Assembly: GCA_017415455.1 (NCBI GenBank)
Contig: JAFQGS010000075.1
Coordinates: forward strand, 1 to 42,646
Length of the DNA stretch: 42,646 nucleotides
Direction of reading: 5' to 3'
Origin: Prevotella sp.
Lineage (GTDB): Bacteria; Bacteroidota; Bacteroidia; Bacteroidales; Bacteroidaceae
Within the stretch, counting starts at the first letter, position 1, and every line of letters begins with the position of its first letter. A program made the position numbers and the translations under genes. Under the pieces are notes generated by a model, which worked only from the letters and a program-made list of their open reading frames with translations, made no database searches and was not told the DNA's origin. This document shows positions 2,040-42,596 of the stretch, one piece after another.

Positions 2040-2171
2040 TAAAGCATATGACTTACACTCCAAAAGCATATGACTTACACTACAAAAGTATATGACTTAC
2101 ACTACAAAAGTATATGACTTACACTACAAAAGTATATGACTTATACTCCAAAAGTATATGACTTATCATTA
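2040..2171. repeat. 22-bp tandem array, six copies (array A)
   Basis: Six head-to-tail copies start at 2040, 2062, 2084, 2106, 2128 and 2150, exactly 22 bp apart. The unit is AAAAGYATATGACTTACACT plus MC. Copies 3 and 4 are identical, and the last copy decays at its right end. There are no spacers, so it is not a CRISPR array. It lies between the relic gene and the purU promoter. Confidence 0.9.
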
Positions 2172-2314
2172 CGTCCGTATCATAAGGCAATATACATCAT
2201 GTATTTTCCCTCTTTGTTATTAATATATCACTATCTCGGTCAATAAATTTACAATTCATAACGTTTGTAGTTAAAAAACACACATAATATGTAATTAATA
2301 TGGAGTTTTTTTAA

Positions 2315-2322
2315 TACTTTTG
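2315..2322 (+). promoter_or_regulatory. -7 box of purU
   Basis: TACTTTTG matches TAnnTTTG and lies 50 bp before the purU start. No TTTG is present at the usual -33 distance, so only half of the promoter is recognisable. Confidence 0.5.
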
Positions 2323-2372
2323 CAAGTGAAAAAGGAAAGAGATTGTAAATTAAGTATTAATATTCAGCGACA

Positions 2373-3236
2373 ATGAAACCTACAGCGATATTATTGCTAC
2401 ACTGCCCAGACAAACAAGGCATTATAACAGAGGTAACAAAATTCATTACAGATAACAAGGGAAACATTGTTTATCTTGACCAATACGTTGACCGCCAGGA
2501 TGGAATGTTCTTCATGAGAATAGAATGGGAGCTTGACAATTTCCTCATCCCACGTAACAAGCTAAACGAATATATCCACACTCTTTACGCTCAACGCTAT
2601 CAGATGACATTCAGTCTTTATTTTAACGACGAGAAGCCTCGCATGGCAATCTTCGTAAGTAAGATGAGCCACTGTCTGTACGACCTGCTGGCACGTTACA
2701 AGGCAGGCGAATGGAACGTTGACATCCCATGCATCATCAGCAACCACGAGGATCTGAGATACATTGCCGAGCAGTTTGACATTCCGTATTACGTATGGTC
2801 TATAAAGAAAGACCATTCAAACAAAGCCGAAGTGGAGGCTGCCGAGATGGAGCTGCTGAAGAAGGAGAACGTAACCTTCATGGTTCTTGCAAGATACATG
2901 CAGATAATCAGCGACGACATGATAGAGAGTTATCCTAACAAGATAATCAACATACACCATTCTTTCCTTCCCGCCTTCATCGGAGCAAAGCCATACCATC
3001 AGGCATGGGAGCGCGGAGTGAAGATTATCGGAGCAACAAGCCACTATGTAACAGCAGAACTGGATGCCGGTCCTATCATAGAGCAGGACGTGGTGAGGAT
3101 AACACACAAAGACACACCCGAAAGTCTTGTTCTCAAAGGACGCGACCTTGAGAAGATTGTATTAAGCCGGGCTGTAACAAAACATATTGAGAGAAAGATT
3201 CTCACATTCCACAACAAGACGATAATATTCAGTTAA
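2373..3236 (+). CDS. purU: Formyltetrahydrofolate deformylase
   Basis: The enzyme hydrolyses 10-formyl-tetrahydrofolate to formate and tetrahydrofolate, balancing one-carbon pools and supplying formate. The 287-aa product has the usual length. An N-terminal ACT domain (about 6-85) precedes a formyltransferase-fold catalytic domain (about 90-270). NIHHSFLPAF (194-203, catalytic His) and the downstream Asp of ELDAGPIIEQD (D231) are both present. It has its own -7 box. A 98-bp gap separates it from hisH, so it may feed one-carbon units to purine and histidine-linked metabolism alongside that operon. Confidence 0.96.
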   Translation: MKPTAILLLHCPDKQGIITEVTKFITDNKGNIVYLDQYVDRQDGMFFMRIEWELDNFLIPRNKLNEYIHTLYAQRYQMTFSLYFNDEKPRMAIFVSKMSHCLYDLLARYKAGEWNVDIPCIISNHEDLRYIAEQFDIPYYVWSIKKDHSNKAEVEAAEMELLKKENVTFMVLARYMQIISDDMIESYPNKIINIHHSFLPAFIGAKPYHQAWERGVKIIGATSHYVTAELDAGPIIEQDVVRITHKDTPESLVLKGRDLEKIVLSRAVTKHIERKILTFHNKTIIFS

Positions 3237-3334
3237 CTATACGTTTTCTGATTTTAAAGCTGTCACACACACGAACTTTTAAAGCCCGAATGCCATTAAG
3301 AGCAGAAATACAGAAGGCATAGCAGATACGGAAA

Positions 3335-3925
3335 ATGAATATAGCTATTGTAAAATATAACGCGGGAAACATATACAGCGTAGTTAACGGATTAAGAAGA
3401 CTCGGTATAGAGCCATTATTAACCGACAATGCCGAAGAGCTAAGCAAAGCAGACAAGGTGATTTTCCCAGGACAGGGAGAGGCACGCAGCGCGATGGAGT
3501 ATCTCAGGGAACGCCAGCTGGATGAAATAATAAGAAACCTTAAGCAGCCTGTACTCGGCATTTGCGTAGGACAGCAGTTGCTTTGCAGACATTCTGAGGA
3601 GGGGGACACCAGTTGCATAGGTATCTTTGACGCAGACGTTAAGAGATTCGTCCCGCAAAGACACGAGGACAAAGTGCCAGCCATGGGATGGAACTCACTT
3701 AGTGATGTAAAGTCTCCGTTATTCAAAGGATTTGCCGATAATGAATACGTTTATTTCGTACACAGCTATTACGTACCCCTTTGCGAGCATACCATAGCAA
3801 CGGCAGAATACATACAGCCATATAGTGCGGCACTTAACTACAAGAACTTCTACGCCACACAGTTCCACCCGGAGAAAAGCGGCAATGTGGGAGTAAGAAT
3901 ATTGGAGAATTTCCTAAATATCTAA
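3335..3925 (+). CDS. hisH: Imidazole glycerol phosphate synthase, glutaminase subunit
   Basis: HisH releases ammonia from glutamine and channels it to HisF to make imidazole glycerol phosphate and AICAR. The 196-aa product is a class I glutamine amidotransferase. The nucleophile Cys77 sits in GICVGQQ, where the third and last positions differ from the common GVCLGMQ, and the His-Glu pair is in QFHPEKSG near the C-terminus. It is the first gene of hisH-hisA-hisF-hisIE, with only 7 bp to hisA. The early histidine genes (hisG, D, C, B) are not in the window. Confidence 0.96.
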   Translation: MNIAIVKYNAGNIYSVVNGLRRLGIEPLLTDNAEELSKADKVIFPGQGEARSAMEYLRERQLDEIIRNLKQPVLGICVGQQLLCRHSEEGDTSCIGIFDADVKRFVPQRHEDKVPAMGWNSLSDVKSPLFKGFADNEYVYFVHSYYVPLCEHTIATAEYIQPYSAALNYKNFYATQFHPEKSGNVGVRILENFLNI

Positions 3926-3932
3926 CAGAAAG

Positions 3933-4673
3933 ATGATTGAACTTATTCCAGCAATAGATATAATAGACGGAAAATGCGTAAGACTCACAAAAGGAGATTA
4001 CAGCCAGAAGACCGTATATAACGACAATCCTGTTGAGGTTGCCATTCAACTGGAAGGCATGGGATTCAAGAGACTTCATATTGTCGACCTTGACGGAGCA
4101 AAGTCTCATCACATCGTAAACATAGACATTCTGAGGAATATCACAACAGCAACAAACCTTGTTGTTGACTTCGGAGGCGGCATAAAGACCCAGGATGACA
4201 TAAGAGCGGCCTTTGAGAATGGCGCCAGCATGGTAACCATCGGTTCTATTGCCGTCACACAACCTGAGATGTTCGCGGAATGGCTTGAGGAATTCGGAGC
4301 CGACAGAATAATACTTGGAGCCGACGTGCGTAACGGAAAGATTAGTATAAACGGGTGGAAAGAGGACTCTACAGAGAAACTTCTACCATTCCTGGAATAT
4401 TATATAAAGAAAGGAGTAAAGAACATCCTTTGCACCGAGATATCAAAAGACGGCACTTTGTCAGGACCAGCCACCGAACTATACAAAGAGATTATGGAGG
4501 CTTACCCTGGCATAAACCTCATTGCAAGCGGTGGAGTATCACAGATGAGCGATATCGAGGAACTGGACAGAAGCAACATACCTTCCGTTGTTTTCGGCAA
4601 AGCCCTATATGAGGGAAAGATTACAAAGGAAGAGATTAAAGCCAAATTGAATCAACAGAACCCAGCTATATAA
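3933..4673 (+). CDS. hisA: ProFAR isomerase (phosphoribosylformimino-AICAR-ribotide isomerase)
   Basis: HisA isomerises ProFAR to PRFAR, the substrate of HisHF. The 246-aa (beta/alpha)8 barrel has the first catalytic Asp in PAIDIIDG (D9), the second in GADVRNGK (about 130), and the twin phosphate-binding loops DFGGGIKT and ASGGVSQM. The start follows hisH by 7 bp and the stop directly abuts the next reading frame, so translation is probably coupled. Confidence 0.97.
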   Translation: MIELIPAIDIIDGKCVRLTKGDYSQKTVYNDNPVEVAIQLEGMGFKRLHIVDLDGAKSHHIVNIDILRNITTATNLVVDFGGGIKTQDDIRAAFENGASMVTIGSIAVTQPEMFAEWLEEFGADRIILGADVRNGKISINGWKEDSTEKLLPFLEYYIKKGVKNILCTEISKDGTLSGPATELYKEIMEAYPGINLIASGGVSQMSDIEELDRSNIPSVVFGKALYEGKITKEEIKAKLNQQNPAI

Positions 4674-4688
4674 TTGAAATTAAGTAAA

Positions 4689-5456
4689 ATGACGCATAAA
4701 GGTATTGCTAAAAGAATTATTCCTTGTCTTGACGTGAAAAACGGTGAGACCGTAAAGGGAACAAACTTTGTCAATCTGCGCAAGGCAGGTGACCCAATAG
4801 AGCTGGGTAAGGCATACAGCAGGGCGGGAGCCGACGAATTGGTGTTTCTTGATATCACAGCAAGCCATGAAGGCCGTAAGACTTTTACGGATATGGTCAC
4901 ACGCGTAGCTGCAGAAATAAACATTCCATTCACGGTGGGAGGCGGCATCAACGCCATTGAAGACGTGGAACGACTGCTTGGTGCAGGTGCTGACAAGATA
5001 AGCATAAACAGTGCCGCCATAAAGAATCCAGACCTTATCAATACCATCACAAGCAGGTTTGGCTCACAAGTATGTGTTTGCGCAATAGACGCACGGAATG
5101 AGGATGGCGAATGGTTCTGCTATCTTAACGGCGGAAGAATCAGAACCGAGCATAAGCTTCTGGAATGGGCAAAGGAAGTTGAGGACAGAGGTGCAGGTGA
5201 GATATTATTCACAAGCATGAATCACGACGGAGTGAAAAATGGATATGCAAATGACATCCTAAGGGTTCTGTCTGAAAACCTAAGCATTCCTATAATTGCG
5301 AGTGGTGGAGCCGGATGTAAAGAACATTTCAAAGATGTCTTTATTGAAGGTAAGGCCGATGCCGCCTTGGCTGCGAGTGTTTTCCATTTTGGAGAAATTC
5401 CAATAGTGGATTTGAAGAAATACCTGCACGATGAGGGTATTAATGTGAGACTATAA
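4689..5456 (+). CDS. hisF: Imidazole glycerol phosphate synthase, cyclase subunit
   Basis: HisF uses ammonia from HisH to close the imidazole ring of PRFAR. The frame is open from a TTG at 4674 immediately after the hisA stop. I place the start at ATG 4689 (255 aa) because the family normally begins a few residues before [10 protein letters not shown]. Catalytic aspartates are in CLDVKNG and CAIDARN. Phosphate-binding loops VGGGIN and ASGGAG are intact. The next gene follows after 33 bp. Confidence 0.96.
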
Positions 5457-5489
5457 ATCAGAACAATAACAAAAATCATATAAATAGTA

Positions 5490-6104
5490 ATGGAAATAAA
5501 TTTTGAGAAGACAAACGGTCTTGTCCCGGCAATAATACAAGATGCTGTTACAAAAAACGTACTGATGTTGGGATATATGAATGAAGAAGCTTATAAAAAA
5601 ACCATAGAGACAGGGAAAGTCACTTTCTTCAGCCGTAGCAGAAACTGTCTTTGGACTAAAGGAGAGACTTCAGGAAACTTCCTGAACCTTGTAAGTATCA
5701 AGAACGACTGCGATAATGATACACTTCTCATACAAGTTAACCCGGTAGGACCAACATGCCATACAGGAACAGACACATGCTGGGGCGACAAAAACGAGAC
5801 AAATCCCCTACTCTTCCTGTCTTCTCTTCAGAATTTCATTGAGAAGAGACATGAAGAGATGCCAGAAGGCTCGTACACAACATCGCTATTCAAAGATGGA
5901 CTGAACAGAATGGCACAGAAAGTTGGCGAAGAGGCATTAGAAGCTGTGATTGAAGCCGTAAACGGTACAGACGAGAGACTGATTTACGAGACATCGGATA
6001 TGCTTTATCACCTTATCGTACTGCTTACAAGCAAAGGGCTGCGTATAGAAGATGTCGCAAAGGAACTTCAGGAAAGACATGACCCTAACTGGCAGAAACA
6101 TTAA
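5490..6104 (+). CDS. hisIE: Bifunctional phosphoribosyl-AMP cyclohydrolase / phosphoribosyl-ATP pyrophosphatase
   Basis: It catalyses the second and third steps of histidine synthesis. The 204-aa product has an N-terminal HisI domain (about 1-110) with the zinc and metal signature CHTGTDTCWGD and a C-terminal HisE domain (about 115-200) with the EEALEAVIEA helix typical of MazG-like pyrophosphatases. It is the last gene of the his cluster. Only 19 bp separate it from the FtsE-like gene, so read-through is possible. Confidence 0.96.
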   Translation: MEINFEKTNGLVPAIIQDAVTKNVLMLGYMNEEAYKKTIETGKVTFFSRSRNCLWTKGETSGNFLNLVSIKNDCDNDTLLIQVNPVGPTCHTGTDTCWGDKNETNPLLFLSSLQNFIEKRHEEMPEGSYTTSLFKDGLNRMAQKVGEEALEAVIEAVNGTDERLIYETSDMLYHLIVLLTSKGLRIEDVAKELQERHDPNWQKH

Positions 6105-6123
6105 TTAATAATACTACAACGCT

Positions 6124-6846
6124 ATGCTTATCAATTACGAGAATGTAGATATTTATCAGGAAGACACTTGTATATTAAATAATGTATGCTTTCATGCAGA
6201 AGAAGGTGAGTTTATATATATCATCGGTAAAGTGGGTTCTGGTAAAAGCAGTCTGCTGAAAACGCTATACTGCGAACTTGATGTTGAAACTAATGCTGAT
6301 TGTGAACAAAGCAAGGCAGAGATTCTCGGATATGACCTGACAAAAATAAAGCGTAAGGAGATACCTTCATTAAGACGTGAGTTGGGCATAATATTTCAAG
6401 ATTTCCAACTTCTCCACGATAAAAGCGTGTGCAAGAATCTTGAATTCGTATTAAAGGCCACAGGCTGGAAGGACAAGAAAGATATTGCTACACGCATAGA
6501 CGAAGTGCTAAAACTCGTGGAAATGGAGCACAAGAAGGATAAAATGCCCCATGAGCTTTCTGGAGGTGAGCAGCAACGAATAGCCATTGCACGCTCTTTA
6601 CTAAACGAGCCTAAGATTATAATAGCAGACGAGCCTACCGGCAATCTTGACAAAGACACAGCAGAGCATATCGTTGAGCTTCTGAAGAATATAAGCCAGC
6701 AAGGTACTGCTATTATAATGACAACGCACAATATAAATATGATAGACAAATATCCCGGTGTTGTATATTGTTGCAGCGAGAAAGAGATAAAGGATGTCAC
6801 GAAAGAATACAACAAGATAAAGATAGACATCGCTGAGAACAATTAA
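6124..6846 (+). CDS. ftsE: FtsE-type ABC transporter ATP-binding protein
   Basis: A single ABC ATPase domain of 240 aa. The Walker A is GKVGSGKSS (about 35-43), the signature is [15 protein letters not shown] and the Walker B is [12 protein letters not shown], which closely matches the FtsE/LolD group. In cell division FtsE pairs with the membrane protein FtsX to control peptidoglycan hydrolases. No ftsX gene lies next to it here, so the partner must be elsewhere. It is placed between hisIE and lysC. A LolD-like lipoprotein-release role cannot be excluded, but the division-type sequence and the DAP pathway neighbours favour FtsE. Confidence 0.8.
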
Positions 6847-6904
6847 GAAAGAGAGAGAGAGATTTACCTGATTGAATATAAAAACGATTAAAAAATATAT
6901 AATT

Positions 6905-8224
6905 ATGAAAGTAATGAAATTTGGAGGAACATCTGTTGGTTCACCAGAACGCATGAAGAGCGTTTCCTCTTTAATAACAAGTAGCGGAGAACCTGTATTC
7001 GTTGTACTCTCTGCAATGTCTGGAACAACAAACTCACTCGTAGAAATATCAGACTACCTGTACAAGAAGAATCCTGAAGGTGCCAATGATGTCATTAACC
7101 GCCTTGAACAGAAATACATGCAACATGTTGAGGAACTGTTCGCAACTGATGAATGGCGCAACACAACACGAGAGTTTCTCCGTGAGGAATTCAACTATCT
7201 TCGCTCATTCACAAAAGATATCTTTACAAGTTTTGAAGAGAAAAGCATAGTAGCCCAGGGTGAGGTTATCAGCACCAATATGGTTGTCAACTACATGAAA
7301 GAGTGTGGCATCAAGGCAACATTGCTATCTGCTCTTGACTTCATGAGAACAGATAAGAACGCTGAGCCAGACTCTATATACATAAAAGAGAAGCTCAATG
7401 CCATAATGGCAGAGAATCAAGGATATCAAGTGTATATCACTCAAGGATTCATCTGCCGCAATGCATATGGTGAGGTTGATAACCTGCAGCGCGGTGGCAG
7501 TGACTACACTGCATCTCTCATCGGCGCGGCAATAGACGCAGAGGAGATTCAGATATGGACAGACATCGACGGAATGCACAACAATGACCCAAGAATTGTT
7601 GATAAGACAGAAGCCATACGACAGTTGCATTTTGAGGAAGCAGCAGAGCTTGCTTATTTCGGAGCAAAGATTCTCCACCCAACATGTATACAGCCTGCTA
7701 AGTTCGCCGGCATTCCAGTACGTCTCCTAAACACAATGGACCCGACAGCCTACGGAACTGTTATTGACAATGTTTCGGTAAAAGGTAAGATAAAGGCTGT
7801 TGCTGCCAAGGACAACATCACTGCTATAAAAATTAAAAGCAGCCGCATGCTCCTTGCTACCGGATTCCTTCGTAAGGTATTTGAGATATTTGAGAGTTAT
7901 CAAACCGCTATCGACATGGTTGCGACAAGCGAGGTCGGTGTGTCAATGAGTATTGACAATGACAGCCATCTGCATGAAATTGTGGACGAGCTGAAGAAAT
8001 ACGGTACAGTGACCGTGGACACAAACATGTGCATTATCTGTGTTGTCGGCGATTTGGACTGGAGCAATGTGGGATTTGAAACCTTGGCAACAGATGCAAT
8101 GAAGGATATTCCTGTTAGAATGATTTCCTATGGTGGCAGTAACTATAATATTTCATTCCTTATACGTGAGGCTGACAAGAAAAAGGCACTTCAAAGTCTT
8201 AGCGACACTTTGTTCAACAAATAA
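6905..8224 (+). CDS. lysC: Aspartate kinase (lysine-pathway type)
   Basis: It phosphorylates L-aspartate, the first step toward lysine, diaminopimelate, threonine and methionine. The frame is open from TTG 6872, but ATG 6905 gives the canonical MKVMKFGGTSVGS start and a 439-aa monofunctional kinase. RGGSDYTA (substrate binding) and two C-terminal ACT domains (about 300-439) that normally bind the feedback inhibitor are present. A GA-dinucleotide run sits at 6847-6864 just upstream. It is followed at 33 bp by lysA, so the pair brackets the DAP/lysine pathway. Confidence 0.95.
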   Translation: MKVMKFGGTSVGSPERMKSVSSLITSSGEPVFVVLSAMSGTTNSLVEISDYLYKKNPEGANDVINRLEQKYMQHVEELFATDEWRNTTREFLREEFNYLRSFTKDIFTSFEEKSIVAQGEVISTNMVVNYMKECGIKATLLSALDFMRTDKNAEPDSIYIKEKLNAIMAENQGYQVYITQGFICRNAYGEVDNLQRGGSDYTASLIGAAIDAEEIQIWTDIDGMHNNDPRIVDKTEAIRQLHFEEAAELAYFGAKILHPTCIQPAKFAGIPVRLLNTMDPTAYGTVIDNVSVKGKIKAVAAKDNITAIKIKSSRMLLATGFLRKVFEIFESYQTAIDMVATSEVGVSMSIDNDSHLHEIVDELKKYGTVTVDTNMCIICVVGDLDWSNVGFETLATDAMKDIPVRMISYGGSNYNISFLIREADKKKALQSLSDTLFNK

Positions 8225-8257
8225 TTAACTTTTTCATAAAAAGGACACAGCAATAAA

Positions 8258-9415
8258 ATGAAGGGCAAGTTTCCTGTAGACAAATTCAAGGAGTTAAAGA
8301 CTCCATTCTATTATTACGACACAGAACTGCTTCGCAAGACATTACGCATAATGAATGAAGAATGCGCCCGTTACGACGGATTCAACATTCATTATGCTGT
8401 GAAAGCCAATGCCAATCCTAAGATTCTCAACATCATCTACCAGTCAGGACTCGGAGCCGACTGTGTCAGTGGTGGTGAGATCCAGGCTGCTATTAACGCA
8501 GGATTCCCTGCCAACAAGATAGTATATGCCGGTGTTGGCAAGAGCGATTGGGAGATAAATCTTGGCTTGGAGAAGGAGATTTCATGTTTCAATGTTGAAA
8601 GTATTGAGGAACTGAAGATAATCAACGAGCTGGCTGCCAAGAAAAACAAGACTGCCAATGTGGCATTCCGCATCAACCCAAACGTTGGAGCACATACGCA
8701 TGCAAATATAACAACAGGTCTGGCAGAGAATAAATTCGGCATAGCTATGAACGATCTGGAGGAAGTCATGAATATAGGACATTCACTTTCTAATATTCAT
8801 GTCACCGGACTGCATTTTCACATTGGTTCTCAGATACTTGACATGAATGACTTCAAGGCTCTCTGTAACAGGATAAACGAGTTGCAGGACAAACTTGAGC
8901 GGCAAAGAGTGTGTGTTGACAGTATCAATGTCGGTGGTGGTTTAGGTATTGACTACAAGCATCCGAACAAAGTATGCATAGCAGACTTCAAAAGTTATTT
9001 CAGCACATTCCATAAACATCTCAGACTACGGCCAGGACAACAGGTTCATTTTGAACTTGGCCGCTCTGTAGTGGCTCCATGTGGCTCACTCATAACTCAA
9101 GTATTATATATTAAACAAGGTGTAAGCAAACAATTCTGCATTGTTGATGCCGGCATGACAGACCTTATCCGTCCAGCTCTTTATCAAGCGTATCATAAGA
9201 TAGAGAATATAACAAGCGAGGAACAGATGGAGACATACGATGTCGTAGGTCCTATATGCGAGTCGAGTGACGTATTTGCCAAGGCATGCGACTTGAATTT
9301 CTGTAAGCGTGGTGACCTCATTGCGATTCGCTCCGCAGGTGCGTATGGCGAGATAATGGCTTCACAATATAATTGCCGCAGCCTTCCTTGCGGATATATT
9401 ACAGAAGAGCTATAG
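8258..9415 (+). CDS. lysA: Diaminopimelate decarboxylase
   Basis: A PLP enzyme (fold type III) that converts meso-diaminopimelate to L-lysine. The PLP lysine is in HYAVKANANP (K50), and the glycine loop VGGGLGIDY, ELGRSVVAPCG and the catalytic-Cys motif GPICESSDVF are all visible. At 385 aa it is slightly shorter than the roughly 420-aa enterobacterial enzyme, as usual for Bacteroidetes. It is co-directional with lysC. Confidence 0.95.
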   Translation: MKGKFPVDKFKELKTPFYYYDTELLRKTLRIMNEECARYDGFNIHYAVKANANPKILNIIYQSGLGADCVSGGEIQAAINAGFPANKIVYAGVGKSDWEINLGLEKEISCFNVESIEELKIINELAAKKNKTANVAFRINPNVGAHTHANITTGLAENKFGIAMNDLEEVMNIGHSLSNIHVTGLHFHIGSQILDMNDFKALCNRINELQDKLERQRVCVDSINVGGGLGIDYKHPNKVCIADFKSYFSTFHKHLRLRPGQQVHFELGRSVVAPCGSLITQVLYIKQGVSKQFCIVDAGMTDLIRPALYQAYHKIENITSEEQMETYDVVGPICESSDVFAKACDLNFCKRGDLIAIRSAGAYGEIMASQYNCRSLPCGYITEEL

Positions 9416-9449
9416 AAAATAGTCACAAATAACAATATCTATTCGGATT

Positions 9450-10589: not shown

Positions 10590-10596
10590 AATAAGT

Positions 10597-14000: not shown

Positions 14001-14035
14001 ATTTTTTTGTGAATACTTAATTATTCATCTCTGCA

Positions 14036-22393: not shown

Positions 22394-22413
22394 TCAATTA
22401 AATGAATAATCAG

Positions 22414-22449
22414 ACAGGTGGTTTCTCTGACAGAAGCCACCTGTTTTTT
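22414..22449 (+). terminator. Intrinsic terminator after the protease-TPR gene
   Basis: A 13-bp stem (ACAGGTGGTTTCT with AGAAGCCACCTGT, one G-T pair) and a 5-nt loop are followed by six Ts, about 20 bp after the stop codon. Confidence 0.9.
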
Positions 22450-22523
22450 ATTATACATCATCATACCCTGATAACATGATGCCTGTATGCCAATAAACAA
22501 AGACACAGAATGATAATCAAAAC

Positions 22524-22630
22524 CATACTGCTTTTGAGTGCTAAACAGCATACTTACGATAGCTAAATGGCATACTTACGATGGCTAAATGGCATACTTT
22601 TAAGACCTAAACACCATACTTATAAATGCC
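22524..22630. repeat. 22-bp tandem array, about five copies (array B)
   Basis: The core CATACT(T) occurs at 22524, 22549, 22571, 22593 and 22615. The last four are exactly 22 bp apart and the first is offset by 25. The unit is close to GCTAAATGGCATACTTACGA plus two bases. The sequence differs from array A but the period is the same. Confidence 0.85.
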
Positions 22631-22691: not shown

Positions 22692-22892
22692 ACTGATACT
22701 CTGTTTTTTGTCTCCATTAGGAACTATCCATCAGAACCGCAGGTATTCTTCAATCACTACTCAAATACAGGAAGGCGCAATTTATCCTCCACTGACTATT
22801 TTATGTGGATAGAAGAAATTTGTAGAGAGCATGCAGGAATGAAGGTTGTGATATACTACTATACGAATCCTTTATCCCCTCACTGGTATTAA
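22692..22892 (+). pseudogene. Possible C-terminal gene remnant
   Basis: A 66-codon stretch without a good start codon reads like protein: SIRNYPSEPQVFFNHYSN, then TDYFMWIEEICREHAGMKVV, ending at a TAA. It follows array B and precedes the terminator of the convergent chaperone gene. The amino-acid composition looks coding, but I do not recognise the family. Array A is also preceded by a decayed gene, so arrays and relics occur together at both sites. The rest of 22394-22968 holds only the terminators and the array. Confidence 0.3.
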
Positions 22893-22909: not shown

Positions 22910-22944
22910 AAAAAAATGGGGAAACCCACTCTGGATTTCCCCAT
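22910..22944 (-). terminator. Intrinsic terminator of the PpiD/SurA-like gene
   Basis: On the minus strand an ATGGGGAAA / TTTCCCCAT stem (positions 936-944 with 916-924, counted from 22000) and an 11-nt loop are followed by a run of Ts (the A-run at 22910-22916). It lies 25 bp past the stop codon. Confidence 0.9.
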
Positions 22945-22968
22945 TGCAAATATTTCTGTATAATCAGT

Positions 22969-30962: not shown

Positions 30963-31041
30963 AAGTGCGCTTTATTGATACAAATTAGGTGTCAAATATC
31001 AATTTATCATATAGTTCTCTGCTAAATCAAAATAAAATTAG

Positions 31042-31049
31042 TAATTTTG
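31042..31049 (+). promoter_or_regulatory. -7 box of secA
   Basis: TAATTTTG, a perfect TAnnTTTG box, lies 45 bp before the secA start codon. No clear -33 TTTG is present. Confidence 0.6.
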
Positions 31050-31093
31050 CAAGAACTTTACATAAACATATATTATTAAAATAAATATTTAAG

Positions 31094-34417: not shown

Positions 34418-34434
34418 ATTATAAATTAATATAT

Positions 34435-34519
34435 AAATGCTTCTGAGTTATTACATATATCATTTGTTATAAACACACATCTGGATATGGTAGGAACTCA
34501 GAAGCATTTTGTTTTTAGA
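34435..34519 (+). terminator. Terminator-like inverted repeat after secA
   Basis: A perfect 15-bp inverted repeat (AAATGCTTCTGAGTT at 34435-34449 and its complement at 34495-34509) encloses a 45-nt loop and is followed by a T-rich run. The long loop is unusual for an intrinsic terminator, so a regulatory or processing role is also possible. Confidence 0.6.
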
Positions 34520-34559
34520 TAAAAACAAACAGTCTTACACTTTTAGAAAAACAACTGCT

Positions 34560-35348: not shown

Positions 35349-35359
35349 TCAATAATAAT

Positions 35360-35390
35360 TTTGCCTTTACAAATAAAAAACATATCTTTG
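35360..35390 (+). promoter_or_regulatory. Strong promoter of the secreted-protein cassette
   Basis: TTTG at 35360-35363, 19 nt, then TATCTTTG at 35383-35390: a full consensus match. A second TAATTTTG box overlaps the -33 element at 35356-35363. The nearest gene starts at 35734, so the transcript has a leader of about 335 nt that contains the large hairpin structure. Confidence 0.7.
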
Positions 35391-35452
35391 CAAAAATCTC
35401 ATTAATATTAACTTAAAATAATTTGCCAATGAAACATAGCGTATAATTTGTT

Positions 35453-35655
35453 TACGCACATTTAAATACATATTGGAAAAGCGTTTTAGCTTATTCTTTC
35501 TCTCTAAAAGTTTGGCGACTTGAAAGGACTCAGAAGGATTTGCATAAAATGTTCACGCCTAAGCGTGGACTTTTGTGTTATCTTGTGAGTTCAGGTTACG
35601 CCAAACACCTTAGAGAGCGAGATACAACAAAAGTACCGCGCTTTTTTTGTGCGTA
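35453..35655 (+). ncRNA. Large structured RNA leader or small RNA
   Basis: The segment folds almost end to end. The outer closing pair is TACGCACA (453-460) with TGTGCGTA (648-655), counted from 35000. Then come CTCTCTAA (500-507) with TTAGAGAG (610-617), GTTTGGCG (510-517) with CGCCAAAC (599-606), GGACTCA (526-532) with TGAGTTC (586-592), CATAAAA (543-549) with TTTTGTG (571-577), and an apical GTTCACGC / GCGTGGAC hairpin (551-558, 563-570) with loop CTAA. It sits behind a strong promoter and before small secreted-protein genes. It could be a cis-regulatory leader, a separate small RNA, or a MITE-like insertion. No match to a known family is claimed. Confidence 0.55.
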
Positions 35656-35733
35656 TTCCGAAACTAAATCAACAGGTACTACAGAGTAACTGAAAAGCCG
35701 TTAAGTAAATCATAAAATTAAATTTAAACGTAA

Positions 35734-36084
35734 ATGAAACATTTATTTCTTGTACTAATTACGCTTATTTCCTTAACTTATCCTTTTGAGGCAACGGGTA
35801 GTGAAGTAGAAACTGTTTTTGCGGATAATTACGTCGTTTTCCGTACTACCCAAAAATTAAGAGCGAACGATGGAAGAGAAATCTATCTTTACTCAAATAG
35901 AATTTGTGAACTTTATGAAGGTGATAGATTAGTAGTAAAATGTACTTATAGATTACAAGAAGGAGAGGTCAGATTATTAGATGAATATGGGAATACTGTA
36001 TATAAGGGGACCTATCGAATGACTTCAGACAGGAGGAACGTTGTTAGTCTAAGATTAGGGGATACAACTTATTATAAAAAATAA
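35734..36084 (+). CDS. Small secreted protein of unknown function
   Basis: The 116-aa product has a clear signal peptide (1-22, LFLVLITLISLTYPFEATG) and a beta-rich mature part. Alternating strands such as YVVFRTTQKL, EIYLYSNRICELYEGD, RLVVKCTYRL and a closing NVVSLRLGDTTYYKK suggest a compact beta-sandwich or barrel. I do not recognise a family. Base composition is visibly more AT-rich than secA or feoAB (many TTA and AGA codons). It is the first of three co-directional secreted-protein genes behind the structured leader; the next starts 57 bp later. Confidence 0.75.
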   Translation: MKHLFLVLITLISLTYPFEATGSEVETVFADNYVVFRTTQKLRANDGREIYLYSNRICELYEGDRLVVKCTYRLQEGEVRLLDEYGNTVYKGTYRMTSDRRNVVSLRLGDTTYYKK

Positions 36085-36141
36085 GAAAACAAGAAGATTT
36101 GAATATATAATATGAAATATTAAAATTAAAGTATATAGAAT

Positions 36142-36810
36142 ATGAAAAAATATTTAATAGCATTATTCGCAATGGTGTGCACATGTTTGATTTTTCCCAA
36201 TAATGCACAAGCGAAAAAGATTAAGATTGTGACAACTCCAGAAAATGCAAAAATATATGTAGACGGAAATTATGTTGGAGACGGAGTGTATGTATTGAAC
36301 TTTAAAGGAAAAGATGAATTCTTTAGTGTCAAGGTAGAAGCTCCCGGCTATATTGAGAAGAATTTGCGAATATATAAACATGACACACGTAAGGCTATTC
36401 CAATTGATTTGAGAGAAGACGAGACAATAGAAGCTTCTGTTGAATCGGATTTAGCAAACAGATATTTTACAATAAACGTTCGTGACGGAGTTGATGAGAA
36501 TTTAGCCTGGAAATTGCTATCACAAGTTATGTTGAATTATTTTGACGAGATGAAAACTTCCGATAAGGCTTCTGGATACATGAATACAACATGGAAGGTT
36601 GATAAGTTCCCGAAAAGTGAACTAAAAGTACGTACTTCGGTTCAAATCAAGGAAATTACCAGTGAAGGTTTAGCCTATCAGATTAGAATCAAATCCGAGA
36701 TTGCACCAATTGATACTCGAGGAGAACAAGGTTACAAACCTTGGACGCGCGTATTGAAACATTATGAACCTTTAATTAATGAAATGCAACAACGAATAGG
36801 AAAACACTAA
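36142..36810 (+). CDS. Secreted PEGA-domain protein
   Basis: The 222-aa product has a signal peptide (1-24, ending AQA). A PEGA-type beta domain follows (about 26-80: KIVTTPENAKIYVDGNYVG, ending VEAPGYIEKN), then a C-terminal domain of unknown type (about 95-222) with WKLLSQVMLNYFDEM and IRIKSEIAPID. PEGA domains are extracytoplasmic modules related to S-layer and carbohydrate-associated proteins. It is the middle gene of the AT-rich cassette, with 3 bp to the next gene. The function is unknown. Confidence 0.78.
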   Translation: MKKYLIALFAMVCTCLIFPNNAQAKKIKIVTTPENAKIYVDGNYVGDGVYVLNFKGKDEFFSVKVEAPGYIEKNLRIYKHDTRKAIPIDLREDETIEASVESDLANRYFTINVRDGVDENLAWKLLSQVMLNYFDEMKTSDKASGYMNTTWKVDKFPKSELKVRTSVQIKEITSEGLAYQIRIKSEIAPIDTRGEQGYKPWTRVLKHYEPLINEMQQRIGKH

Positions 36811-36813
36811 ATC

Positions 36814-37428
36814 ATGAAAAAGAATTTATTGTCATTACTTTGTTTATTGATACTTTCATCTTCTGCTAATGCTCAAATAAAGATTATAGATACCTTTGAC
36901 GGAATGAGTTCTTTAGATTGGACGCAATATGCAGACAAGGACGTTAGTGCTCTAACGAATATGGGATTCCTTGAATTGAAAGTAAAAAAAGAAGGTTTCT
37001 ATATAAATAGTAGTACAGATTTGCCGATTCTAACAGAATATGATTTTAAAATTACTATAAAAATGGTAATTCCTAAATTTGACGAAAAAGAGACATCGGC
37101 TATTCTGTTCGATATGAATGAGAACTTTAAAAGGCTTGCTTTTATTTTCCAGGAAAATAAGTTTATAGCATGTACTTATAATAATGGTAAATTTAGTATG
37201 GATGAAGGAGAAGAAGTCCGTATTAAACTACCGAAAAAGAAAGATCGTCCGATTGAGGTAACGATAGAACGCAAAGGGGGCAAAATTATCATATCCTATG
37301 ACAATATTGAAATTTTCCGCTGGAAGCGTCAGTTACACTCTCCTTATTTAGGTTTCATAACATCTTCTCATCTTAAGATTGACGAAGTAATAGTTGACCA
37401 GGAATATACTGGAGATGAAGAACAATAG
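36814..37428 (+). CDS. Secreted LamG/jelly-roll-like protein
   Basis: The 204-aa product has a signal peptide (1-20, SSSANAQ) and a single beta-sandwich of the concanavalin or LamG type. It begins IDTFDGMSSLDWTQY and carries the recurrent ETSAILFDMNENFKRLAFIFQ and EVTIERKGGKIIISYD strands seen in jelly-roll sugar-binding or glycoside-related domains. No catalytic residues can be assigned. It begins 3 bp after the PEGA gene and ends before a strong palindromic terminator, closing a three-gene unit of exported proteins. Confidence 0.72.
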   Translation: MKKNLLSLLCLLILSSSANAQIKIIDTFDGMSSLDWTQYADKDVSALTNMGFLELKVKKEGFYINSSTDLPILTEYDFKITIKMVIPKFDEKETSAILFDMNENFKRLAFIFQENKFIACTYNNGKFSMDEGEEVRIKLPKKKDRPIEVTIERKGGKIIISYDNIEIFRWKRQLHSPYLGFITSSHLKIDEVIVDQEYTGDEEQ

Positions 37429-37476
37429 AAGTCATTGATTTCTGAAATGCATTAAGCACCAGAGGCTATAAATAAC

Positions 37477-37517
37477 AAATCCCAAGTGTTCATATTAATA
37501 TGAATACTTGGGATTTT
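37477..37517 (+). terminator. Long palindromic terminator after the secreted-protein cassette
   Basis: Positions 37477-37516 form a 40-base palindrome with 20 pairs including one G-T, centred on ATATTAATAT, and followed by TTTTC. The lack of a real loop means it would open to a small apical loop in RNA. It is well placed to end the cassette transcript 48 bp after the last stop. Confidence 0.75.
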
Positions 37518-37559
37518 CATTCTAACTCCCTAAAATCCTCCAGATGCCCAAACGCCTTC

Positions 37560-37643
37560 TGATTAGAACTTGAATACGTGCCGTTTGGAGCCTGAATTCA
37601 TTACGTTTGGAGCCTGCAAACGATGTGTTTGCAGGCTCCAAAC
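37560..37643. repeat. 22-bp-spaced repeats with a 17-bp palindrome (array D)
   Basis: CGTTTGGAGCCTG occurs at 37582 and 37604, exactly 22 bp apart. A degenerate copy is visible one period earlier (37560). The second full copy extends into GTTTGGAGCCTGCAAAC (37605-37621), whose perfect complement GTTTGCAGGCTCCAAAC follows at 37627-37643 after a 5-nt loop. The hairpin lies 13 bp past the stop of the minus-strand gene but has no T-run, so it is not a standard terminator. Confidence 0.8.
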
Positions 37644-37655
37644 TATTTAGTTGCT

Positions 37656-39023
37656 TTAGTCAGTGTGGAAGACCTCTTCCATATCAGCCCACCACTCCCC
37701 TTCTTGTCGTGTGTCAAGCGGGCGCTGACAAGGCATGCACACATCCCACCAACGTTGGGTCTCGGGGTCTGCCGCCATCTTTGCCATGTCTGCCTCGTAG
37801 TCTGTTCCTACATACTCATAATAGCTGAACAGATAACCGTCTTTGAAATAGATGCTGTAATTGCGCAGGTTGCAGTCGTATATCATCTTCAGTACTCCAG
37901 GCCATACCGCTGCATGAAGTCGCTTATACTCCTCCAGCTTCTCCGGGTTCACGGCGATGACACTGCCATAACGGCGCTTGCGTTTCTTTCCACATCCCAC
38001 AGCGTCAAACAGAGCCTCAACATTCTCTGGCTTGGTATCCACCAGGATAGCCTCATGACTTGGCGAAACAATCAGTCCTGTAGGGAATGTCTCCTTCAGC
38101 TCTGTAACCTTCTTTCTCACCTCTTCCGGTGTGCCGTTCACCATCAGATACTGTGCGTCCACACCTCCACAGAATGACACCCGTCCGCCGAAATCATTCT
38201 TCAACCTGTCCGGCTCCATCTTTGTTGCAAGGGCCTGGATAGGATGAATGGCGTCAACACCAAGACCAATCAGATCGGGTATTATATCGTAAATGCTACC
38301 ACAAGAGTGGTGTATAACCTTCAGGCCATAGCGCTTAGCCTGCTCTACAAGCTTGCGTGTCCCGTCAAACACAAACTCTCTCAGTTGCTCCGGACCAACC
38401 ATCAGTCCTTGCTGGCTGCCAAAGTCATTACCAATCAGCACGGCATGAAGTTTTCCTTGTGTAGCCTTGTAGAATATCTCATTTGCCCGCAGATAGAAAT
38501 CGGTTATCTTATCAATTACCGCCTTGAACAAGTCTGGCGCGATGAACATCTTAACCAATGCATCCTCCATGCCAAATGCGGCACAGGCGTCCTGGAAATG
38601 TGCCGACCACACAACGCCAAGAACAGCATAACCGTCTGGCACATCCTCTACAACCTTACGGCATTCCTCCGGATCGATGTATTTCTCTGGCTCTGGCCAG
38701 TCAAACAGGTCCACAGCAGAGGCATCTGTATAATCCTCAAAGAATCCCGGTGCTGTCAGCGTGCGGTGCTCATTAGAGCCATCGCTCTTTTTCTTGGCAA
38801 AGTCGAAAGCCGCATAAATGGCATTGCTCGTCGGAGAGTGATAAGGCATCTCCACTGGATAGATGTCATCTCCCAGACGCGCTTTCAGGTCTTTCATGTT
38901 GTCAACCCCAAAATACTCATACAGTTTCGGCAATGCTCCCTCATCTGGTATTCCCAGCCAAGAGGCCGGACGGTCCACCGGTCTACGTTCTATCGTAGCA
39001 TAAAAGCGTTCAATTCGGTTCAT
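37656..39023 (-). CDS. URO-D/MtaA-like methyltransferase domain fused to L-rhamnose mutarotase
   Basis: The 455-aa protein joins two families. Residues 1-345 are the uroporphyrinogen decarboxylase/MtaA superfamily: HHSCGS (H239, C241) and FCGGVD (C285) supply the H-x-C...C set that binds zinc in corrinoid-linked methyltransferases and not in true URO-D. Residues 350-455 are an RhaM-type L-rhamnose mutarotase (RYGSVIAVNPEKLEEYKRLH with His370, ADMAKMAADPETQRWWD, EGEWWADMEEVFH). No rhamnose or heme genes are nearby. The fusion suggests that a sugar-derived or methylated substrate links the two activities. Neither substrate is known. Confidence 0.82.
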   Translation of the reverse strand: MNRIERFYATIERRPVDRPASWLGIPDEGALPKLYEYFGVDNMKDLKARLGDDIYPVEMPYHSPTSNAIYAAFDFAKKKSDGSNEHRTLTAPGFFEDYTDASAVDLFDWPEPEKYIDPEECRKVVEDVPDGYAVLGVVWSAHFQDACAAFGMEDALVKMFIAPDLFKAVIDKITDFYLRANEIFYKATQGKLHAVLIGNDFGSQQGLMVGPEQLREFVFDGTRKLVEQAKRYGLKVIHHSCGSIYDIIPDLIGLGVDAIHPIQALATKMEPDRLKNDFGGRVSFCGGVDAQYLMVNGTPEEVRKKVTELKETFPTGLIVSPSHEAILVDTKPENVEALFDAVGCGKKRKRRYGSVIAVNPEKLEEYKRLHAAVWPGVLKMIYDCNLRNYSIYFKDGYLFSYYEYVGTDYEADMAKMAADPETQRWWDVCMPCQRPLDTRQEGEWWADMEEVFHTD

Positions 39024-39269
39024 AATAGTATTCTATTTAATAATTTGTTTTATACGGATCAATTTAACAGTATCTGACTGAAAATGGCGATTAATCACCT
39101 TTTTAAGTTTCACAAAGATACAATAAAGAATTGAATTAGGAAATAAATTAGTGAGAGATAAACAAAAATCTAATCATTTGTGACCAATAATCGCAATATT
39201 ATCCACCCTCCGCATCATCATTTGTAGGTATTCAGACATATCAAATACTATAAAAACAACAAATATTTG

Positions 39270-39277
39270 TACCTTTG
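39270..39277 (+). promoter_or_regulatory. -7 box of feoAB
   Basis: TACCTTTG, a perfect TAnnTTTG box, lies 32 bp before the start codon. No TTTG is seen at the -33 distance, which is compatible with a regulated promoter, although no iron-box palindrome was identified. The remaining 39024-39260 shows nothing else. Confidence 0.55.
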
Positions 39278-39308
39278 CATTGAAAATAATGATATTTAAA
39301 TAATTAAC

Positions 39309-41831
39309 ATGAGATTATCCGAACTAAAGACAGGAGACAAGGGCGTTATCGTAAAGGTTCTTGGTCATGGCGGTTTCCGCAAACGCATCGTAGAAATGGG
39401 ATTCATCAAGGGTAAGACCGTTGAGGTTTTGCTCAATGCTCCATTGCAAGACCCTGTGAAGTATAAGGTGATGGGATATGAGGTTTCCTTAAGGCACGAT
39501 GAGGCAGAAATGATTGAGATTGTATCTGCGAACAGTTACGATGAGGCAGACAACAACCCTAACAACCAGGAAAACAATTCGGACAATCCCCATAACCAAC
39601 CGGAAGTTACGGAAGAGAAGCTGCATGAGGTGGCGAAGAAGAAACGCCGCACAATAAACGTTGCACTCGTAGGTAATCCCAACTGTGGCAAGACCTCTCT
39701 GTTCAACTTCGTATCCGGAGCACATGAGCGTGTCGGCAACTACTCTGGAGTAACCGTCGATGCTAAGGAAGGCTATGCTGAGTTTGAGGGCTACCGTTTC
39801 AACATAACAGACCTGCCCGGCACATACTCGCTCTCTGCATACAGTCCAGAGGAGCTATATGTAAGAGAGCAGATAATAGAAAAGACTCCTGACGTCATCA
39901 TAAACATCATAGACTCATCCAACATAGAAAGAAACCTCTACCTCACCACACAGCTGGTGGATATGAATCTGCGTATGATATGCGCACTTAATATGTATGA
40001 CGAGTTTGAGAAACGAGGCGACAAGCTTGATTACAATAAGCTCGGACAGCTCTTCGGCATACCTATGGTACCCACTGTCTTCAAGACAGGAGAAGGCATC
40101 GAGCTCTTATTCCACATGATTATCAACATGTATGAGGGTGTGGACTTCCTTGATAAAGACGGAAACATTAATCCCGAGGTGGCGAAAGAGCTTCAGGAAT
40201 GGCACAAGCACTATGAGAAGAAGCATGGCGGAGACCATGAAGAGGATTTCGCTCATGGCGACAAGCCAAGGCGCAACGTATTCAGACACATCCATCTGAA
40301 CCACGGCATGTACATAGAGAATGCCATAAATGCGATAAAAGACGAGTTGCAGAGCAACGAGAACATACGCCATAAGTACTCCACACGCTACCTGGCAATC
40401 AAGTTGCTTGAAATGGACAAGGAGACAGAGAAACTGATACAGCAGCTGCCTAACGCCGGGAAAATCATCGCTATACGCAACAAAGCGGCAGAGGATGTGA
40501 GGAAAGACACCAAAGAGGACAGCGAGACAGCCATAATGAATGCTAAGTACGGATTCATTCACGGCGCACTTCAGGAGGCTGGATTCGAGGAAGGCACAAG
40601 GCAAGACACATACCAGATAACACATCTGCTTGACAAGATTGTGACAAACAAGCACTGGAGCTTCCCGCTCTTCATATTATTCCTCTACATTATGTTCGAG
40701 GTGACATTCACCATCGGTGCTTACCCCATGGACTGGATTGACGCAGGCATAGGAGCTCTGGGAGAATTTGTCGGCAGCACCATGGCCGACGGACCGCTAA
40801 AGGATATGATTGTGGACGGAATAATTGCCGGTGTCGGCTCTGTGATAATATTCCTCCCGCAAATCCTTATCCTATATCTGTTCATATCTTTCATGGAGGA
40901 CAGCGGATACATGGCACGCGCGGCTTTCATCATGGACAAGCTAATGCACAAAATGGGACTTCACGGCAAGTCGTTTATCCCACTGATTATGGGATTCGGC
41001 TGCAACGTTCCGGCCATAATGGCAACAAGAACTATTGAGAGCCGACGCAGCAGACTCATAACGATGCTCATCCTGCCGCTTATGAGTTGCTCGGCACGTC
41101 TGCCTATTTACATAATGATTGTAGGAACATTCTTTGCCGTAAGATATCAGAGCCTCATCATGCTGTCGCTTTATGCCATAGGAATATTGCTCGCAGTGAT
41201 AATGAGCCGCATATTCAGCATCTGGCTGGTGAAGGGAGAGGACACACCTTTTGTCATGGAACTTCCACCCTATCGTTTCCCAACCGTCAAGGCCATATTA
41301 AGACATACATGGGACAAGGGCAAGCAGTATCTGAAGAAGATGGGAGGAATTATCCTCGTTGCAAGTATCATTGTATGGGCATTGGGTTACTTCCCGCACA
41401 ATGATGAACTGAGCACTCAGGAGCAACAGGAGCAAAGCTATATCGGACAGATAGGCAAGGCCATTGAGCCGGTATTCCAACTCCAGGGATTTGACTGGAA
41501 ACTTGACGTGGCACTCATAACAGGTGTTGGCGCAAAAGAGATTGTTGCCTCAACAATGGGTGTGCTTTATGCTGGCGATGACAGCATAGCAGAGGACGAG
41601 ACACGCTATGACAGCCTTTACGAAAAGATGTCTGCTAACGGCATAACACCTCTCATCGCATTCTGTTATCTGCTCTTCGTACTGATATACTTCCCTTGTA
41701 TTGCAACGATTGCGGCTATCAAGGGAGAGACAGGAAGCTGGAAATGGGCACTGTTCGCCGCCGGATATACAACACTGCTCGCATGGGTGATATCCGCACT
41801 TGTATATCAAATAGGCAGTTTGTTTATTTAA
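39309..41831 (+). CDS. feoB: Ferrous iron transporter FeoA-FeoB fusion
   Basis: The 840-aa protein joins a FeoA SH3-like domain (about 1-75) to full FeoB through a Asn/Glu-rich linker (about 78-110). The G domain has G1 GNPNCGKTS (122-130), G3 DLPGTYSL (168-175) and G4 NMYD (228-231). Transmembrane segments from about residue 455 include the Gate motif GCNVPAIMATRTI with its conserved Cys. It moves Fe2+ across the inner membrane. The FeoA-FeoB fusion is characteristic of Bacteroidetes. No feoC is present. A strong terminator follows 15 bp after the stop. Confidence 0.97.
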   Translation: MRLSELKTGDKGVIVKVLGHGGFRKRIVEMGFIKGKTVEVLLNAPLQDPVKYKVMGYEVSLRHDEAEMIEIVSANSYDEADNNPNNQENNSDNPHNQPEVTEEKLHEVAKKKRRTINVALVGNPNCGKTSLFNFVSGAHERVGNYSGVTVDAKEGYAEFEGYRFNITDLPGTYSLSAYSPEELYVREQIIEKTPDVIINIIDSSNIERNLYLTTQLVDMNLRMICALNMYDEFEKRGDKLDYNKLGQLFGIPMVPTVFKTGEGIELLFHMIINMYEGVDFLDKDGNINPEVAKELQEWHKHYEKKHGGDHEEDFAHGDKPRRNVFRHIHLNHGMYIENAINAIKDELQSNENIRHKYSTRYLAIKLLEMDKETEKLIQQLPNAGKIIAIRNKAAEDVRKDTKEDSETAIMNAKYGFIHGALQEAGFEEGTRQDTYQITHLLDKIVTNKHWSFPLFILFLYIMFEVTFTIGAYPMDWIDAGIGALGEFVGSTMADGPLKDMIVDGIIAGVGSVIIFLPQILILYLFISFMEDSGYMARAAFIMDKLMHKMGLHGKSFIPLIMGFGCNVPAIMATRTIESRRSRLITMLILPLMSCSARLPIYIMIVGTFFAVRYQSLIMLSLYAIGILLAVIMSRIFSIWLVKGEDTPFVMELPPYRFPTVKAILRHTWDKGKQYLKKMGGIILVASIIVWALGYFPHNDELSTQEQQEQSYIGQIGKAIEPVFQLQGFDWKLDVALITGVGAKEIVASTMGVLYAGDDSIAEDETRYDSLYEKMSANGITPLIAFCYLLFVLIYFPCIATIAAIKGETGSWKWALFAAGYTTLLAWVISALVYQIGSLFI

Positions 41832-41845
41832 TCATCTTATAAATA

Positions 41846-41889
41846 AAAAGAAGAATGGTATGATCTGCTTCATATCATTCTTCTTTTAT
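41846..41889 (+). terminator. Intrinsic terminator of feoAB
   Basis: An 18-bp stem (AAAAGAAGAATGGTATGA at 41846-41863 with TCATATCATTCTTCTTTT at 41870-41887, one G-T pair) has a 6-nt loop and a T-rich 3' side. Confidence 0.85.
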
Positions 41890-42086
41890 TGCATACATAG
41901 AAGGTCTATGGATTATATAAGATATTAAGTTTCACAGGTTCCGCTTGCCTTGCAGATAGAGGGAGACAGATGAAGACAGAAGGAGATAAAAAACAATAGT
42001 TTTGCTACAGGAAGGCTGCAAACAGAGTATTAACCCTTTCGTTCATCAACACGTGTCCTCTATCTTCTACTATATTCTTCCAAAGG

Positions 42087-42202
42087 CCCTTAACCATTAA
42101 ACTTTAAACTTTAAAAAGTTGACAAGTAACGAGTTGACAAGTTAATTGATTAACGAGAACGATAACCTTAACCATTAAACTTTAACCATTAAACTTTAAA
42201 CG
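42087..42202. repeat. Degenerate heptamer repeats and 'gagttgacaagt' direct repeat
   Basis: Units of the CCATTAAA / CTTTAAA type recur at 42088-42115 and 42168-42202. Between them GAGTTGACAAGT-like copies repeat (about 42116-42145). The same heptamer type is found at 213-247 at the other end of the window. Confidence 0.6.
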
Positions 42203-42312
42203 CTCTTCTATCTTCCTATATCTTCTTAACATCCGAAACTTGAGTAAGATATAGAGATTCTTTTGAATCTGATGACATTCAAAAATCCCAAGAATCTATT
42301 TCATATATTTTT

Positions 42313-42519
42313 CGTGCATTAATGCCACATTTTTTGAATTAATGTCATTTTTGGCGTGCATTAATTCACCCGATTTTGGGGTGTTTTAACTTAAATCCAG
42401 TTAAATATTAACACATATTTAATAAAAAGAGTTATATTTCAGGGAATTAATGTCTGGCAAAAATGACATTAATTCCAATTATTGTCACATTTTTGTATTT
42501 TTGTGACATTAATTCAAAA
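42313..42519. repeat. Inverted and direct ATTAAT-centred repeats
   Basis: GAATTAATGTCATTTTTG at 42336-42353 has an exact 18-bp inverted copy at 42458-42475. Related ATTAAT-centred sites lie at 42318, 42338, 42360, 42446, 42468 and 42508, several 20-22 bp apart. TGTCACA / TGTGACA arms also flank 42484-42508. This looks like a cluster of binding sites for a dimeric DNA-binding protein. Confidence 0.7.
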
Positions 42520-42523
42520 ACAC

Positions 42524-42596
42524 CATGCTTTTTACTCGTAAGTACCATACTTTCAGTGTGTTAGTATGGTATTTATGTCAAAAAAAACGCATACTT
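42524..42596. repeat. 22-bp-phased CATACTT repeats (array C)
   Basis: CATGCTT at 42524 and CATACTT at 42546 and 42590 are 22 and 44 bp apart. The missing phase (42568) is only weakly similar. ACCATACT (42544-42551) and AGTATGGT (42563-42570) also make an inverted repeat. The core is the same as in array B, about 20 kb away. Confidence 0.7.

Follow-up and report, generated by a model that had tools for sequence, protein, structure and literature searches.

Intergenic arrays with a common 22-bp period in Prevotella as possible binding lattices of small helix-turn-helix proteins

The window analysed here is a whole contig of Prevotella sp., 42,646 nucleotides long (JAFQGS010000075.1 of assembly GCA_017415455.1; contig C63 of the genome that we call G000, which totals 2.5 Mb over 135 contigs and is 91% complete), and it carries four intergenic arrays, A to D, whose units recur every 22 bp. 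We find that arrays A, B and D are one family, in which a 13-bp near-palindrome, AARYRNNATACTT, is followed by a 9-bp linker, and that array C is a separate type, yet with the same 13+9 layout. Many other unit sequences of the lineage share the period, and in relatives such lattices often stand directly before genes for small proteins resembling helix-turn-helix (HTH) proteins. The arrays may thus be lattices to which small, diverging HTH proteins bind cooperatively, a reading drawn from DNA sequence to which we give a probability of about 40%.

Results

Three of the four arrays form one family

Arrays were detected in the window with Tandem Repeats Finder (TRF), a lag scan and a site matrix for ATACTT-family sites. 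The matrix places array A at 2020..2164 on the minus strand, with seven sites in one orientation (-------); by TRF it spans 2041-2165 as 5.7 copies of 22 bp with 96% matches, and its minus strand reads AAGTCATATACTT + TTGTAGTGT, that is, the 13+9 site of the ATACTT family. Array B (22521..22621 on the plus strand by the matrix; 22540-22622 and 3.8 copies of 22 bp by TRF) lies in a convergent gap and consists of one minus site followed by four plus ATACTT sites (-++++). Array D (42518..42596) has four sites of the same family at exact 22-bp steps, in the order ++-+; it was picked up by neither TRF nor the lag scan, owing to an inverted unit and to differences between the units. Array C (37563..37652) is a lattice of the second type, with AAAC-N5-GTTT-like sites and the linker GGAGCCTGC / GCAGGCTCC. 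It is made of two direct copies and an inverted arm, with lag-22 segments at 37563-37616 and 37605-37654, and the site matrix scan puts its sites at 22-bp steps from 37574 to 37652.

An earlier note on this DNA had described four 22-bp arrays of independent sequence and without spacers. The arrays exist, A and B by TRF, C in the form just given and D by the site matrix only. Their independence is ruled out by that matrix, which joins A, B and D, and the units do contain a spacer, in that a conserved 13-bp site is followed by a variable 9-bp linker. The note had also swapped the lettering of two arrays: CATACTT is the motif that B shares with the array at 42524, and CGTTTGGAGCCTG belongs to the array at 37560.

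The 22-bp phase is kept through inversion

The ideal form of the 13-bp site is AAGTAT-N-ATACTT. In G000 the pair CATACTT-N15-CATACTT occurs 34 times and the pattern read backward not once. With the gap allowed to vary from 3 to 33, G000 has 37 CATACTT pairs, 34 of them with a gap of 15 (exactly 22 bp) and one with a gap of 14, compared with two pairs for the backward control; in another genome of the sample (G034), 40/43 CATACTT pairs are at exact 22-bp spacing. The bases preceding CATACTT are AARYRN in 128 exact pairs, and no such bias is seen where CATACTT stands alone (68 cases in these stretches).

A matrix trained solely on same-orientation pairs (19 distinct sites) was used to ask how inverted units are placed. 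At a score of at least 8, distances were multiples of 22 in 163/163 same-orientation and 52/55 opposite-orientation pairs, so that inversion keeps the phase; a matrix retrained on more stretches gave 234/272, 227/275, 110/133 (minus then plus) and 18/50 (plus then minus). Among 33 arrays of mixed orientation, 25 have a single switch from minus to plus, two have the opposite switch and six have several, so the strong half-site usually points outward. Most arrays were picked for their ATACTT sites, which makes the comparison of site and linker conservation partly circular; the variable-gap pair counts, the inversion matrix, the comparison with isolated CATACTT and the counts of inverted-arm centres given below are less so.

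One period is shared by many sequences in the lineage

Within the window, lag 22 gave six segments scoring at least 9 (the top two at 94 and 30.5), compared with 0 to 2 at lags 20, 21, 23 and 24 and with 0.34 segments per lag in ten Markov shuffles. In 1.2 Mb from eight genomes chosen blind to arrays, 17 segments were found at lag 22 and 1, 1, 4, 1 and 4 at lags 19, 20, 21, 23 and 24, respectively. The excess of lag 22 over other lags and shuffles, together with the exact pair spacing, rules out chance. Once the ATACTT family had been removed from the pooled stretches, 50 unit families remained at period 22, three each at 19, 20 and 23, and 12 at 24; period 21 is likewise raised, with 26. The preference for 22 over its neighbours proposed in the earlier note is therefore borne out, as is its view that something keeps the arrays at two helical turns, and its idea that different sequences share one helical period holds for the lineage, with these 50 further families, and fails for A, B and D of the window.

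The other families also share a layout. Four-base inverted arms around a five-base centre, the arrangement of the 13-bp site, are present in 22/50 families, where 4.4 would be expected; the excess extends to other odd centres, and even centres are at background. The arms AAAC-N5-GTTT recur in six of the 50 (0.02 expected), and lattices of the second type, resembling array C, are found at loci L121, L264, L301 and L415.

Several further repeats were seen in the same material. Period-21 arrays occur at L085, L087, L088, L098, L312 and L318, for example with CCCGAGAATAA or AAGTCTAAGAGTTA units, and some of them adjoin ATACTT lattices. L361 and L364, from a genome with few ATACTT arrays (G010), hold several lattices with the unit CAAAAGGTTACCTTTTACTCAT. 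The backward control TTCATAC-N15-TTCATAC has 15 matches in one genome of the genus (G278) and 29 in one of the order (G487), resembling further period-22 families with another core. In two genomes from a different family of the order (G555 and G462), many matches have the form CATACTTTGTCCATAGTTCCTCCATACTT, in which the 22-bp spacing divides into two halves of 11 bp.

Lattices stand before small HTH genes in relatives

Clustering of array neighbours, with flanking genes taken as simple open reading frame (ORF) picks, showed that in several genomes DUF6371 genes have a lattice at their 3' end. The order in these mobile cassettes is AAA_25 helicase, DUF6371, lattice, a gene for a 61-residue HTH-like protein without a Pfam match, an HU-HIG protein and Amidase_2; the DUF6371 protein appears TOPRIM-like, judged only by reading. 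In 7/10 close DUF6371 loci (at least 54% identity) a lattice precedes the next small gene. The lattice sequence varies from cassette to cassette, and the lattice often stops at the start codon or enters it.

The promoter comparison took the 61-residue family and DUF4248 as small HTH genes and used 28/30 HTH and 8/10 DUF4248 loci, an identical protein, a contig-end locus and two partial matches having been dropped. A lag-22 score of at least 10 was found upstream of 15/35 HTH/DUF4248 genes and of 3/643 control ORFs (one of the 36 promoters is omitted from this count, and another, lacking usable upstream DNA, scores zero at all lags), a contrast whose significance is overstated because the HTH query was picked beside a lattice and its homologues are not independent. 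A looser rule gave 20/36 and 18/643, and 22 was the best lag in 18/36 of these promoters, the next best lags accounting for five each. Matches to the 61-residue protein occur in 72/299 genomes of the genus, namely in 16/23 lattice genomes and 56/276 others, where the lattice genomes were chosen by eye from the 299-genome listing and some were included owing to the cassette lattice itself. That lattices so often lie just before small DNA-binding genes suggests that they are coated by protein, and lends support to the multi-site repressor that the earlier note had envisaged. An array at the promoter of an HTH gene, as an operator array would have it, is thus found in relatives (the 15/35 above) and not for arrays A to D.

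Lattices are intergenic, scattered and biased to 3' ends

The exact CATACTT pair occurs in 40/299 genomes of the genus, with up to 76 per genome; the backward control matches 13 genomes, so single matches may be chance. In a 295-genome sample of the order, 16 genomes have a match, the window's own among them, and AARYR precedes CATACTT in none of the listed matches from outside the genus. Among the matches listed, the named genomes are rumen and gut Prevotella, Segatella copri, S. baroniae B14, Parabacteroides sp. ZJ-118, a Mediterranea and a metagenome-assembled Bacteroides. A strict pattern has 0 matches in the viral collection, which gives no support to a viral origin of the ATACTT family.

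Dozens of arrays are scattered over many contigs of G000. ORFs of at least 150 residues contain just 4/141 unique arrays. Convergent gene pairs make up 36/110 of the gaps with arrays and 32/242 of the other gaps, and a neighbouring 3' end lies within 30 bp in 41/126 cases, compared with 8/94 for 5' ends. With one genome per species, few array positions are common between species. A handful of neighbours are shared between genomes, such as a purU-like gene in G000 and G110 and a tex-like gene in G000 and G104 (both names are our own reading), several of them on different sides of the gene; no expectation was computed for this sharing. The placement at 3' ends and in convergent gaps, and the few common neighbours, rule out a promoter-operator regulon for all arrays.

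The purU-like gene of the window (2373..3236, plus strand) lies downstream of array A. Its relative in G110 (84.7% protein identity) has an upstream lattice with other linkers; in five further relatives, four have no lattice nearby and the fifth (G008) has a weak two-site run about 1.1 kb off. Array B is flanked by two terminator-like hairpins, one belonging to the gene before it (22412..22446, plus strand, 15 pairs and a T tail) and one to the gene after it (22915..22945, minus strand, 14 pairs and a T tail). Array C contains a perfect 17-bp stem with a five-base loop (37605..37643). Array D lies inside a dispersed non-coding repeat, which occupies 42304..42646 as far as the window reaches and was delimited by blastn and by alignment with contigs C48, C85, C97, C103 and C117; it is about 430 bp long and has at least six copies in G000, some cut by contig ends. 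This repeat also holds a large hairpin with a GGGGG centre and several AATTAATGTCA motifs. Putative remnants of reading frames, already remarked in the earlier note, lie next to arrays A and B (window positions 1855-2010 and 22720-22890), and positions 358-538 match Rfam Bacteroidales-1, a suggested 6S RNA of Bacteroidales. At locus L065 of G034 (2955-4110), a Bro-N gene is flanked by two near-identical lattices about 1.08 kb apart.

Discussion

At the level of sequence, we see a dyad-like 13+9 unit, a phase that is kept through inversion, many sequences with a common period and odd-centred arms, and lattices at the promoters of HTH genes in relatives. To accommodate these features we propose that a small MerR- or excisionase-like HTH protein would bind each site as a symmetric pair, and that the two-turn spacing of sites would allow cooperative assembly along one face of the DNA. 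On a lattice at its own promoter, such a protein could regulate its own synthesis. Protein and site would diverge together while the geometry stays constant. Solo lattices such as A to D would be dispersed copies, mainly intergenic and near 3' ends, that may serve as extra binding platforms or persist as tolerated leftovers.

Several observations weigh against this proposal, in addition to the overstated promoter contrast. About half of the HTH/DUF4248 promoters have no lattice, only 1/17 of the more distant DUF6371 genes is directly followed by one, and outside cassettes the arrays prefer 3' ends over promoters. Whole-unit dyad symmetry in the 50 families averages 12.5 matches, compared with 11.0 in shuffles, and is singly significant in only eight; in the ATACTT family, complementarity at linker positions is no higher than expected. 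The fold of the 61-residue protein is assigned from weak matches in the PDB, to terminase small subunits and a MerR-like protein, with a best E value of 0.024. G000 itself has no match to this protein or to DUF6371, and its single DUF4248 gene has no upstream lattice, which together rule out that a single cassette protein binds the lattices of every genome that has them.

Lattices bound by HTH proteins nevertheless head our ranking, followed by selfish dispersal and then by a structural protein. A selfish origin is a rather doubtful alternative, in which dispersed repeats of the kind of miniature inverted-repeat transposable elements (MITEs) or bacterial interspersed mosaic elements (BIMEs), with outward-facing end sites, would have been copied and have grown by slippage or unequal exchange, leaving a period without present function. 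The location of array D inside a dispersed repeat, the prevailing single minus-to-plus switch (25/33) and the bias to 3' ends and convergent gaps would all fit, as would identical linkers, shared by 16/459 array pairs within a genome and 26/3196 between genomes. Such an origin leaves the single period over many sequences unexplained, and no common flanks were found among the G000 arrays compared, save for the D element, nor any target duplication recognised by eye. Mobility by a REP-associated tyrosine transposase (RAYT; REP, repetitive extragenic palindrome) is ruled out, since the Y1 transposase PF01797 does not track with the arrays: it has no match in the array-bearing genomes G000, G157, G289, G104 and G265, some of which are incomplete assemblies, and matches in five other genomes. 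Somewhat less likely again is that a structural protein or topoisomerase with a relaxed sequence requirement recognises the arrays as marks of transcription-unit ends, with a two-turn period imposed by the wrapping of DNA. One geometry over many sequences and the enrichment at convergent gaps and 3' ends speak for it, and a nucleoid role has been proposed for constant-size satellites (PMC8161180, in its available text); the ATACTT half-site is, however, so strongly conserved across loci that it is more sequence-specific than expected, and the arrays vary widely between genomes of a single genus.

Two further explanations seem improbable. The earlier note had invoked plasmid iterons, and the lattices could indeed serve the cassettes as iterons of an origin-like kind, solo lattices then being what is left of elements that once replicated: in relatives they adjoin AAA_25 helicase and DUF6371 genes, and their sequence differs between homologous cassettes. 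Yet lattices also lie far from cassettes, are spread over many contigs of G000, where DUF6371 was not found, and have no strict match in viral contigs, so a plasmid iteron as the note had it is not supported (no search of Rep_3, plasmid or phage records was made). Least probable of all is selection for hairpins in RNA or single-stranded DNA. Array C folds on both strands (z -6.1 and -7.5), as does D (-5.4 and -2.6), and so does the minus strand of A (-3.8), whereas B, between its two terminator-like hairpins, does not (-0.5 and 0.0), and positions 3 and 11 of the 13-bp site are complementary in only 38% of units; these values rule out hairpins as the common property of the arrays.

The earlier note had suspected an undescribed kind of repeat, and in this the literature disagrees. 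Subirana and Messeguer (PMC8161180, in its available text) describe tandem repeats in non-coding bacterial DNA whose length is constant (20-21 or 20-23, and 52 nucleotides) while their sequence varies, with several families per species and positions little conserved between strains; they point out that 20-21 nucleotides equal two turns of the helix, and as explanations they put forward a protein that polymerises, a stabilising role in the nucleoid, or small RNAs. Like those satellites, the lattices have one dominant non-coding length, here 22 bp, and comprise 50 families besides ATACTT. They are unlike them, as far as that text goes, in being 22 bp long and from Bacteroidales, in their 13+9 layout with odd-centred arms, in a phase that survives inversion and in their link to small HTH genes. 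Klein and colleagues (PMC4596501, in its available text) describe BrickBuilt, a 23-nucleotide minisatellite within a MITE of Porphyromonas gingivalis, and 22- and 41-nucleotide repeats in strain W83. These too are intergenic tandem repeats of nearly equal unit size at many loci of a Bacteroidales genome; BrickBuilt has a leader, a tail and IS5-like terminal repeats, whereas the lattices mostly lack common flanks (IS5 ends were not searched for). The class is therefore known already, and the 13+9 layout, the inversion-proof phase and the HTH promoters were not met in the available text of either paper. Among the papers that one literature search listed, none uses the term DUF4248.

REPs are biased to 3' ends, as the lattices are. 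Similarities with REPs and BIMEs, so far as these are described in the part of PMC2817692 available, extend to regularly spaced near-palindromic units, mixed orientation and intergenic location. From these elements, in that partial account, the lattices differ by a shorter site, a strict 22-bp phase and the lack of tracking with the Y1 transposase. Lambda Xis and BldC form cooperative small winged-HTH filaments on repeated, phased sites, and the lattices resemble their systems in combining small HTH proteins with phased repeats; spacing and number of loci differ, and binding to the lattices is only predicted. Unlike clustered regularly interspaced short palindromic repeats (CRISPR), which have unique spacers, the lattices have 9-bp linkers that frequently recur in one and the same array (no search for cas genes was made).

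PMC8161180, in the text available, leaves open why satellites hold their repeat length while their sequence changes. A broader and rather speculative answer, which we think unlikely to hold in full, would be that a rapidly diverging family of small winged-HTH proteins, encoded in mobile primase cassettes, leaves bacterial satellites of 20-23 nucleotides as its footprints. Assembling on DNA at a two-turn pitch, these proteins would set the period by their geometry, coevolution of protein and site would alter the sequence, and solo lattices would accumulate in the chromosome. With its dyad layout and HTH promoters, the system offers a named protein family and a defined site to work with, and Segatella baroniae B14 is a cultured carrier of lattices, so that the question can be tested at the bench. 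If the proposal is true, intergenic DNA coated by protein would form a layer of gut and rumen Bacteroidales genomes that annotation has passed over.

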